Below, piece by piece: positions 45,690 through 48,600 of a DNA stretch of 64,000 nt (position 1 is the stretch's first letter; the number at the start of each line of letters is the position of its first letter). The position numbers and the translations under genes are program-made. Origin of the DNA: Salvelinus alpinus (taxonomy: Eukaryota > Chordata > Actinopteri > Salmoniformes > Salmonidae); NCBI RefSeq assembly GCF_045679555.1, contig NC_092100.1, forward strand, positions 28,893,106 to 28,957,105. The letters are read 5' to 3'. The notes beneath the pieces are model-generated. The model was not told the DNA's origin. It did not search any database and saw only the letters and a program-made list of their open reading frames with translations.

Positions 45690-48600
45690 CTGCAATTAAG
45701 TAAATACGTTCCTTATGAATAACATTGTTTCATTATTTGTTGCAGCTGATGAGTTCATGTGTCAGCAGGGTCGCATTAACCAAACAGTAGAGGGCAGAGT
45801 TGAGCTGTCAGTTAGTCCTCTTTCCAACACACTGGCCTTTTTTGTCGTTTTGGCAAAAAGTATGTTCTCCGTCCTCTCTCTGTCAATGACAGTACAGTAT
45901 GACGATAGGCATTAACTGATTCTCCAATAGAAATCCGCGATCACACTTGTAAGTGATGTCATGGCGACGTTGGCTAGCTAAGCAAAGGATAATCTGTCAA
46001 TAGGCAAACGGAAGACGGTCAGATGAGACAGATATTTCACCATGACACTTCACAATGTTTAAATGTGAAGCATCCGCTTGGCGTTTCAACTCACTACCAA
46101 ATATGGAAGATCACTGGCCGGCAGTGGGAGACGATAAGGCGAGATCGATTTTGCCCGACATTCTGCTAATTTTCTCATCGATTAAACATTTGATCTCAAT
46201 ATACATTTTTCTGTTCCCAAAACTAGAAGATGTTACGAACATAGTGGACTACGTTTTGTAGAATTTACCCTTTGCTAAAGTTAAAAATAATGGCGTTGTT
46301 TAGAAGGAGTGCAAAAGCGAATTGAGTTATTGCGCACCTCACAGAGTAGGCCTTCTCTAACGGAAATATGCTTTGCTAGAACGCGACAATACTAGTTCGT
46401 GCTTGGCTCTGCCCACCTCCTTGCTTCTTCTGACCACTGACTCATTTGTTCATGTTTGAAACAACGGCCTGTGGTCTATCTAGGTTTAGTTATAAAAATC
46501 TTTGGTTCTCCCTTCCTCGATAGCCTCCTTTTGGTGTATCCTTCTCCTTCTTCTTCTTCGGAGTTTAACAGCGGTTGGCATCCAAAATGTTGCTTTACCG
46601 CCCCCAACTGGACTATCATATAAATCCATTATACTTTGTAATACAAAATACAATTAAAATAATAATTTAAAAAAATATATATATAGATATATATATATGC
46701 AAAAAAAACAACCTTCAAACTAACCCTATACTCATTAAAATCATTACCCCATTCCACTACTTGATCCTATCTACTCCTGCACCATGCCAATGGCCTGGGA
46801 CACCACCACTCAACACACCCTGTAACTCTTCTGAAGTCAAATCTCGTATACCCAAATAGTTCTCTGTAACTGCCACCACAGCATCTATTTTCTGTGATTT
46901 ACGTTCCATTTCTGCGGTACAGTTGATAACCATTGCTATGAATGCTAAGAAGTCAACATTACTGAAGCTTAAATCACTTGCTTGCTATTTGGGGTTTTAG
47001 GCTGGGTTTCTGTACAGCACTTTGTGACATCAGCTGATGTAAGAAGGGCTTTATAAATACATTTGATTGATTGATCACTCGTTGGCCTATCCCTCTGTGC
47101 TGGCACAGATGTACTACTCACAGGGATCCTGACCAATCCTCTTCTACTTTCTTCACTGCCTCAGCATACGACACCTTCTGCACTACTCTGACTCTAGCCA
47201 CCTCAACCTGCCTCTCTCGCATCGGACACTTCCGATCCCCAGCAACATGGGCACCTCTAGAGTTGACACACACAACTTTTCCACCGAAACTACACAATCC
47301 TCTATCCCATGCCCTCCTGTGTAACAGTATAACTTTAAACCGTCCCCTCGCCACGACACGGGCGCAAACCAGGGACCCTCTGTACACATCAACAACAGTC
47401 ACCCACGAAGCGTCGTTACCCATCGCTCCACAAAAGCCGCTGCTCTTGCAGAGCAAGGGGAACCACTACTTCTAGGTTTCAGAGCAAGTGACGTAACTGA
47501 TTGAAACCCTATTAGCGCGTACACGCTAACTAGCTAGCCATTTCACATCTGTTACACTCACCCCCCTTTCAACCTCCTCCTATTCCGCAGCAACCAGTGA
47601 TCCGGGTCAACAGCATCAATGTAACAGTATAACTTTACGGCGTCCCCTCGCCCCGAGCGCGAACCAGGGACCCTCTGCACACATCAACAACGGTCGCCCA
47701 CCAAGCATCGTTACCCATCGCTCCACAAAGGCCACGGCTCTTGCAGAGCAAGGGGAACCACTACTTCTAGGTTTCAGAGCAAGTGACGTAACTGATTGAA
47801 ACGCTATTAGCGCATACCCGCTAACTAGCTAGCCATTTCACATCCGTTACACCTGCACACTTCCCACATCTTGGAATCTCCCTCCTACAAACTGCTGCGA
47901 CATGACCATAAACGTTGCATCTGAAACACCACAGTGGGTTCGGCACAAAAGCTCTAACAGCATAACTGATATATCCTAACATGACTTTGTCGGGTAAAGA
48001 CTCAAAACTCAAAAGGACTGACAGTGACTCCTCTGTTTCATAACGCTCACCACCGGGTCTGCATCTCACCAAACAGCGGGCATCACAAATACCAGGAATC
48101 TTTAACTTCAATTGCTCCACCTCCACACTTAATGCTTCCCCAGAAATCACTCCTTTCAATTGTGTCCTGTTCCAAAGAGCAAAGCAAGAAACAGATCTTG
48201 ACCCAAGTTGCGTGACACGAAGCACCCGCTCCTGTTGATCAGAAGAAACACACACAAATATCACTACAGGTTACCTTCACTGATTCAACTGTACCCAACT
48301 CCTTTATCACCAACCCTGAAACCACAAATGGATCTGCCAAAAGGCAAGGATCCATTTTCTTCAAAAATGTCACTCCTACTGGACCAGATTCCTCATCATG
48401 TCCATTGATGCACCACACCTTCCATCTCACTTAACTCACTCTCCTTCACTTTCATTTCACCTCCTTCACTTGATCTGGAGCACAGCTCACTTTGTTTGCA
48501 CTTGACTCTTCTTCAACACCCAATCTCCATTTTTATCGCCATTTCCTCAAATTCAATTCCAACCTCAGTTTTCCTCATTTTCTTTAACCTCTTCTTCCTC

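Follow-up and report, generated by a model that had tools for sequence, protein, structure and literature searches.

A very probable terminal-repeat retrotransposon in miniature with putative RNA polymerase III-type signals in its long terminal repeats in the Salvelinus alpinus genome

The stretch of Salvelinus alpinus contig NC_092100.1 analysed here (64,000 nucleotides, positions 28,893,106 to 28,957,105; hereafter the window) contains a 532-bp unit lodged in the remains of a long interspersed element (LINE). Two direct repeats of 237 and 232 bp, which share 90.7% identity, are separated by 63 bp (Table 1). The unit starts with TGTAACAG and finishes with GTTACA, so that its termini read TGTAAC...GTTACA, and CCTG is found immediately outside each end. 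Read in the minus sense, the layout is a 5' long terminal repeat (LTR), a position suited to a primer-binding site (PBS), a purine-rich stretch ending in GAAAGGGGGGTGAG and a 3' LTR. A preliminary description of the locus had reported the unit, its repeats of about 235 bp with TGT...ACA ends, the flanking CCTG, the purine tract before one repeat and the primer-site position after the other, and all of these are confirmed. No second copy of the LTR was detected within the 64-kb window by BLAST, and the viral and bacterial contigs scanned gave no match to the element.

The host sequence is a broken LINE open reading frame 1 (ORF1) in the minus sense, and the insertion lies inside its second CCHC knuckle. 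When translated separately the flanks read ...CFRCNVYGHVAAVCRREIPRCGKCA and GGHGIEDC..., and their phase fits when a single copy of CAGG is counted. Two LINE relatives among public proteins, P0001 and P0002, have CGKCAGGHVTEDW and YGKCARGHGIEDC with no interruption. The earlier claim that removal of the element restores the LINE frame exactly is correct only locally, as the LINE has further frame breaks. Pfam gave only a weak zinc-knuckle match for the host (E 0.038, under the Pfam cut-off), and positions ~47000-47075 resemble what we take to be the tail of a short interspersed element (SINE).

We surveyed the 2.37-Gb assembly of the same genome for relatives of the element; the copies examined are best matches and not a random sample. 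Querying with the 3' LTR produced 1187 first-look candidates, of which 40 were scored, and 49 matches. With the interior as the query, two candidates were scored (common words were skipped), yielding an older copy, L046. A solo LTR of 83% identity beside one match served as the query for a second subfamily, here subfamily 2 (40 of 2647 candidates scored, with 43 matches; 12 stretches retrieved), and two old copies were obtained by means of a PBS pattern.

Classification of 56 LTR chains gave 31 single LTRs, 22 LTR-interior-LTR elements and three LTR-interior-LTR-interior-LTR arrays. Exact 4-bp duplications flank 25 of the single LTRs (a further four match at 3/4 positions, one has none and one lacks an end), 15 of the LTR-interior-LTR elements (one at 3/4, one with none, five lacking an end) and all three arrays. 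Among the 50 chains with both ends intact, 43 therefore have an exact duplication, five match at 3/4 positions and two have none. L031 and L032 have common flanks and represent one insertion copied by duplication, hence the exact duplication is present in 42/49 independent cases, and the 3/4 match of L007 is a coincidence at a fragment. By their duplications, 25/31 single LTRs are true solo LTRs, and the measured pairs have a near-constant interior of 62-65 bp; 90 bases were read between the partial LTR matches of L046, the interior match itself being 62 bp. In L005 and L007 an LTR (1501-1737) with about 15 bases of the purine tract abuts unrelated DNA, and no target duplication is present; they resemble products initiated at the purine tract, with one end attached by a different route.

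An LTR 25-mer has 4753 exact matches in the genome, the junction of the LTR end with the diverged PBS of the window copy has 1408 and the junction with a tRNA-His PBS has 339; the reversed-pattern control gave 0 in each case. Among the first 100 LTR 25-mers listed, 40 belong to pairs on one strand with a spacing of 280-310 bases, an argument against unrelated spacers.

Kimura two-parameter distances (K2P) between paired LTRs range from 0.000 to 0.077, with values of 0.004-0.03 for L017, L015, L026 and L006. The window pair (0.077) combines an LTR of the TGACTG type with one of the CGACCG type and is therefore no clean clock. Mixed types were observed inside 7/15 typed multi-LTR elements (L001, L004, L013, L014, L033, L036 and L037), in a search biased to one type; the four mixed cases in this biased sample that have two LTRs all carry TGACTG in the 3' LTR and CGACCG in the 5' LTR. 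Mixed types are not expected from a single round of reverse transcription, and recombination or conversion among copies is likely.

One base after the LTR, a PBS of type TGGTGCCGTGACCCGGAT matches the 3' end of the genome's own tRNA-His at 18/18 positions. A search for tRNA-His-like genes gave 49 candidates, of which 40 were scored and 11/40 retrieved; ARAGORN called tRNA-His at 10/11 retrieved loci, and 7/11 predict exactly TGGTGCCGTGACCCGGAT, the other four departing from it at one base (three loci) or at two (one locus). In one stretch (G000:C17:46886905-46912148) tRNA-His-like copies with 88-89% identity to the query recur about 1.4 kb apart as a tandem tRNA array, and the two array copies read (L089 and L090) have an altered T arm. 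TGGTGCCGTGACCCGGAT itself is present in 4/21 aligned interiors and in L046. The preliminary description had proposed comparing the start of the interior with salmonid tRNA 3' ends; the comparison gives 18/18 with tRNA-His in the 339-junction lineage, whereas the window copy, which belongs to the 1408-junction lineage, has diverged (10/18, ungapped). In an LTR-anchored test against 25 tRNAs, tRNA-His ranked first for the window PBS TGATGCTGTTGACCCGGAT, at a score reached by 5/3000 random 30-mers and 16/3000 shuffles; the unanchored test was weak (180/2000 shuffles and 74/4000 random 28-mers).

In our view the element is very probably a terminal-repeat retrotransposon in miniature (TRIM) belonging to a large family in this salmonid genome. 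This reading is strongly supported by the 4-bp duplications, the near-constant interior, the solo LTRs, the tRNA-His PBS and the purine tract, and the plan found here is that of TRIMs in general: two LTRs, a very short non-coding interior, a PBS with a purine tract and short duplications. The family has no coding capacity.

The preliminary description also drew attention to tRNA-like motifs in the repeats. One of these, ctggttcgcgc, overlaps the box B that we identify, but the other, tggctagctagttagcgg, lies 170 bases upstream of that box B and is not the A box that belongs to it. It has three mismatches to the consensus and is equalled elsewhere in the LTR, and LTR position 127 was preferred. 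In the alignment with tRNAs, box A falls at LTR 127-129, and box B is found 60 bases beyond it, at LTR 187. The tRNA likeness was assessed by local alignment to the 25 tRNAs, with shuffled sequences as the control, and is stronger in the four older or subfamily-2 LTRs tested than in the window: L046 scores 51.3 (reached by 0/1000 dinucleotide shuffles), the old LTR of L002 scores 44.7 (1/1000 dinucleotide shuffles), and L073 and L067 score 47.6 and 45.0 (0/1000 and 1/1000 single-base shuffles). With short-gap scoring tRNA-Phe is the best local match in 54/58 LTRs. With long-gap scoring, however, the best partners are Arg (30), Phe (21) and others (6) in subfamily 1 (n = 57) and Asn (13) and Arg (3) in subfamily 2 (n = 17), and since the best partner shifts in this way tRNA-Ile and tRNA-Phe were dropped as the source tRNA.

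Subfamily 2 keeps the better boxes, with box B as GGTTCGAGCCC in 13/17 LTRs, box A as TGGCGCGATGGG in 9/17, and with TGACGTCA present in 13/17. In subfamily 1 the prevailing forms are GGTTCGCGCCC for box B (45/57), TGGAGCGATGGG for box A (49/57) and TTACGTCA for a site resembling the activating transcription factor/cAMP-response element (ATF/CRE; 50/57), and the boxes of the window copy are decayed. A composite of box A (at most two mismatches), box B (at most two) and CRE (at most one), with consensus forms taken from the portion of PMC7279448 available to us, was present in 17/17 subfamily-2 and 51/57 subfamily-1 LTRs, solely in the two LTRs within the window, and in none of 19 unrelated loci (121,924 strand-bases, 117 A+B pairs). 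At thresholds of (1,1,1) it is retained by 10/17 subfamily-2 LTRs, and at (1,0,0) by 6/17. Box pairs alone do not discriminate, as 124 A+B pairs at two or fewer mismatches each occur in the window, and 1061/3000 random 235-mers have, like the LTRs, six or fewer A+B mismatches. A minus-sense TTTT is found near LTR 122 in 45/57 subfamily-1 and 16/17 subfamily-2 LTRs and elsewhere in the LTR in only 0/57 and 1/17, compared with 1.26 per shuffled LTR; the copies share descent, so these counts are not 57 independent cases.

Box A, box B and CRE are also combined in those type 2 RNA polymerase III (Pol III) genes whose CRE lies near -50, namely 7SL, EBER, vault and 4.5SH (PMC7279448, as far as that report was available). 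The three elements have the same order here; placing box A at +12 would put the CRE at about -55/-48, and the A>G change at base 7 of box A would correspond to position 18, as in a transcribed B1_5 copy described in the same portion of PMC7279448. The differences are that those are single genes and not LTRs, and that box B is at +72 here as opposed to about +54 there. Pol III-type signals, as had been suggested earlier, are supported at the level of sequence, although with another A box than the one named and in decayed form in the window copy.

From these observations we consider it rather probable that the LTR contains a tRNA-derived type 2 Pol III promoter, made up of boxes A and B (at LTR 127 and 187) and a CRE at about -50, with a predicted start near LTR 116 of the 5' LTR. 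With box A at +12 the start would fall near LTR 116, so that the TTTT at about LTR 122 could end the RNA in the 3' LTR once a short stretch of its 5' end had been repeated, leaving a repeated end for strand transfer. In the cycle that we envisage, tRNA-His would prime reverse transcription, an autonomous Gypsy-type LTR element would supply the reverse transcriptase and integrase, and recombination between LTRs would give rise to the solo LTRs and arrays. The TRIM inserted, in minus orientation, into an old LINE ORF1, and the window copy, with its decayed boxes and diverged PBS, is probably dead.

Several points weigh against parts of this scheme. The usual spacing between box A and box B is 42, and the 60 bases found here exceed it. 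ARAGORN identified no tRNA in the window, and Rfam gave no tRNA match even at E<=10. The tRNA likeness of the window LTRs is itself weak, the scores of the 5' and 3' LTRs being reached by 32 and 147 per 1000 shuffles, respectively, and by 82 and 52 in a second run. None of the 57 subfamily-1 LTRs retains the composite at (1,1,1), and the CRE joined the composite only after it had been noticed; as A+B pairs are common and the CRE was chosen post hoc, the composite is suggestive and is not a blind test. The TTTT just past the predicted start might also stop the RNA early, in the 5' LTR. The commonest lineage lacks the tRNA-His match, and no coding partner was found at the four sites examined of 25 tRNA-His sites outside the family junctions.

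An ordinary TRIM, mobilized in the same manner from RNA polymerase II (Pol II) RNA and carrying its tRNA likeness as the unused relic of a SINE inserted in the LTR, is a possibility that we take seriously while leaning against it. The young subfamily has spread (K2P 0.004-0.03) despite its loss of bases from box A and box B (TGGAGCGATGGG in 49/57 and GGTTCGCGCCC in 45/57), and a CRE can serve Pol II. Against this, TATAWA, AATAAA and ATTAAA are all absent from the window LTRs, box B is retained as GGTTCGAGCCC in 13/17 subfamily-2 LTRs, and box A, box B and CRE are arranged in the order, and roughly at the distances, seen in known genes of Pol III type 2. Further in the opposite direction, the proposal that the LTR is a complete 7SL-like Pol III unit (CRE, boxes, TTTT stop and a repeated end of about 10 bases), and that the 1408-junction lineage spread with another primer after giving up the tRNA-His match, is one that we hold only tentatively and consider doubtful.

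It is improbable that the family derives by deletion from a full-length endogenous LTR retrotransposon that has the same LTR, or is the solo-LTR system of one. The 4-bp duplications and solo LTRs would also fit full-length LTR elements, and internal deletion gives rise to some TRIMs (PMC10886601, in its available portion). However, a long interior with the TRIM LTR was found in 0/56 chains (flanks mostly 0.3-1.5 kb), the 25/31 single LTRs with duplications are true solos, and the LTR and purine tract of L005 and L007 have no second LTR inside about 10 kb. The tRNA-His site following ACA and any base occurs at 364 places in the genome, of which 339 are the GTTACATT junctions of the family; the four of the remaining 25 that were examined were picked from the first 100 listed. 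A first pattern with the human-type tRNA-His site was a weak test for this reason and found two places, both old TRIM copies. At L095/L096 an LTR-like end CTGTTACA, one base and an exact tRNA-His site precede an interior unlike that of the TRIM, which speaks for this derivation. The upstream part of L095/L096 does not match the TRIM LTR, however, and neither a repeat of its own nor a recognized coding motif was seen in 5.6 kb; the ~6 kb surrounding L095 likewise shows neither a further repeat nor a recognized reverse-transcriptase, protease or knuckle motif.

Among the other tRNA-His sites examined, L094 (691 bases) looks like a chimera, in which a left part about 80% identical to L095 and an exact tRNA-His site are followed by the TRIM interior and 3' LTR. 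Such a make-up points to a switch of strands during copying of the TRIM and of a different element primed by tRNA-His, and L094 and L095 may be traces of the helper. In L093 the TRIM interior and 3' LTR are present and the 5' side is replaced. L092 is a different miniature element with direct repeats at 71-254 and 363-546 (184 bp matched, 87.5%), an exact tRNA-His site inside and, by eye, CATA on both outer sides.

A nonautonomous DNA transposon with TGTAACAG inverted ends, in tandem by chance, is very improbable; many copies do have 8-bp inverted ends and the duplication is of fixed, short length, but long direct repeats are not expected of such an element, and the LTR-spacer-LTR unit, in which an 18/18 tRNA-His PBS and a purine tract are placed correctly for reverse transcription, also counts against it. 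The preliminary description's own alternative, a tandem pair of SINEs, can account for the tRNA-like boxes and high copy number but is hardly tenable, being contradicted in the best-match sample by exact duplications of 4 bp, not long ones, across single, paired and triple copies (43/50), by the constant 62-65-bp spacer of measured pairs, and by TG...CA ends and the PBS and purine tract that the repeats enclose.

Returning to the TRIM reading, the closest known systems are the Helenus TRIMs with tRNA-like LTRs, which have been reported from coelacanth, sturgeon, paddlefish and ostariophysan fish (Kojima, 2024; PMC10886601, here and below in the portion available to us). The suggestion that an element of this kind may be undescribed in a vertebrate is therefore unsupported, although salmonids are absent from Table 1 of that report. 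Animal Helenus families have 4-bp duplications, the vertebrate families have a PBS from the 3' end of tRNA-His, -Leu or -Lys, and most but not all of the LTRs have a box A with TRGCY and YGG; a Gypsy-type partner has been proposed for the animal families, and Pol III transcription is unproven for Helenus too (PMC10886601). The present family resembles Helenus in its length of less than 1 kb, tRNA-derived LTR boxes, 4-bp duplications, tRNA-His PBS, purine tract, solo LTRs and thousands of copies, and in its tandem arrays, which are reported for zebrafish LTR-11_DR (5575 LTRs; PMC10886601). The GGTTC of a Helenus box B is found in subfamily 2 (GGTTCGAGCCC, 13/17) and is weaker in the window copy, and the vertebrate-type PBS is found at the 339 exact junctions and has diverged in the window copy. 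The differences lie in box A, which is TGGCG or TGGAG here and not TRGCY (TGGCGCGATGGG, in 9/17 subfamily-2 LTRs, has TRGC and TGG but G and not Y as its fifth base), in the box distance of 60 and in the CRE, of which no mention was noticed for Helenus in the available portion of PMC10886601. By its plan and features, as read from sequence, the family is probably a salmonid member of Helenus.

The likeness to the Cassandra elements of plants that had been suggested extends to the plan only. Cassandra has a Pol III-type internal promoter in the LTR, a similar size and arrays, as far as the sources available to us describe it; its LTR carries 5S rRNA sequence, whereas Rfam gave no 5S rRNA match here at E<=1 or E<=10. 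No salmonid TRIM was recognized in the available portions of the literature searched, including PMC10886601, PMC3747384, PMC7279448 and PMC9778375. Searches of the literature with LTR sequence strings gave no match. By its title, a 1988 study by Moir and Dixon reportedly concerns a salmonid repeat like a retroviral LTR, which may be the same LTR.

Table 1. Features of the element and its insertion site (window positions)
Feature	Position	Strand	Remarks
Target-site duplication CCTG (CAGG in minus sense)	47316..47319		3' side of element
Target-site duplication CCTG	47852..47855		5' side of element (minus sense)
5' LTR, 232 bp, TGTAACGG...CTGTTACA	47620..47851	-	90.7% to other LTR; length class as in genome copies
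ATF/CRE-like site TTACGTCA, 5' LTR	47784..47791	-	LTR position 61; about -55 to -48 of putative start
Box A TGGAGCGATGG, 5' LTR	47715..47725	-	Two mismatches to TRGYnnARBGG
Box B GGTTCGCGCTC, 5' LTR	47655..47665	-	Two mismatches to GGTTCRAnYCY
PBS, diverged type TGATGCTGTTGACCCGGAT	47600..47618	-	After 5' LTR
Interior, 63 bp, non-coding	47557..47619	-	Matches 21 aligned true interiors and subfamily 2 interiors
Polypurine tract GAAAGGGGGGTGAG	47557..47570	-	One T; abuts 3' LTR
3' LTR, 237 bp, TGTAACAG...CTGTTACA	47320..47556	-	From repeat comparison
ATF/CRE-like site TTACGTCA, 3' LTR	47489..47496	-	
TTTT, 3' LTR	47432..47435	-	Only minus-sense TTTT of element; possible Pol III stop, just past putative start
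Box A copy, 3' LTR	47420..47430	-	
Box B copy GGTTTGCGCCC, 3' LTR	47360..47370	-	
Host LINE ORF1 fragment, upstream	47852..48760	-	Knuckle 1 (CFRCNVYGHVAAVC) plus the first half of knuckle 2
Host LINE ORF1 fragment, downstream	46701..47319	-	Second half of knuckle 2; broken by frame change and SINE-like insertion

Elsewhere in the window, all in the minus sense, a 214-aa ORF at 33776-34420 looks from its translation like part of an endogenous-retrovirus envelope, a 569-aa ORF at 3754-5463 gives the impression, again from the translation, of a NACHT/NLR protein, perhaps CIITA-like, and positions 10885-14461 contain two overlapping LINE ORFs (687 and 510 aa), the upstream one with a 2A-like GDVEVNPGP. 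An unrelated dispersed repeat family was also encountered in the genome (L047-L066; 828 first-look candidates, 40 scored).

If the interpretation given here is correct, Pol III-type TRIMs would be extended to a salmonid, with thousands of copies in solo and array forms. For annotation, it is relevant that these LTRs disperse a CRE and tRNA-like boxes across the genome. The two subfamilies, which differ in how far promoter decay has gone, and the lineages with intact and diverged PBS would form a good natural series, bearing on whether the tRNA-derived promoter is required by an LTR element and on what serves as primer once the PBS misfits.

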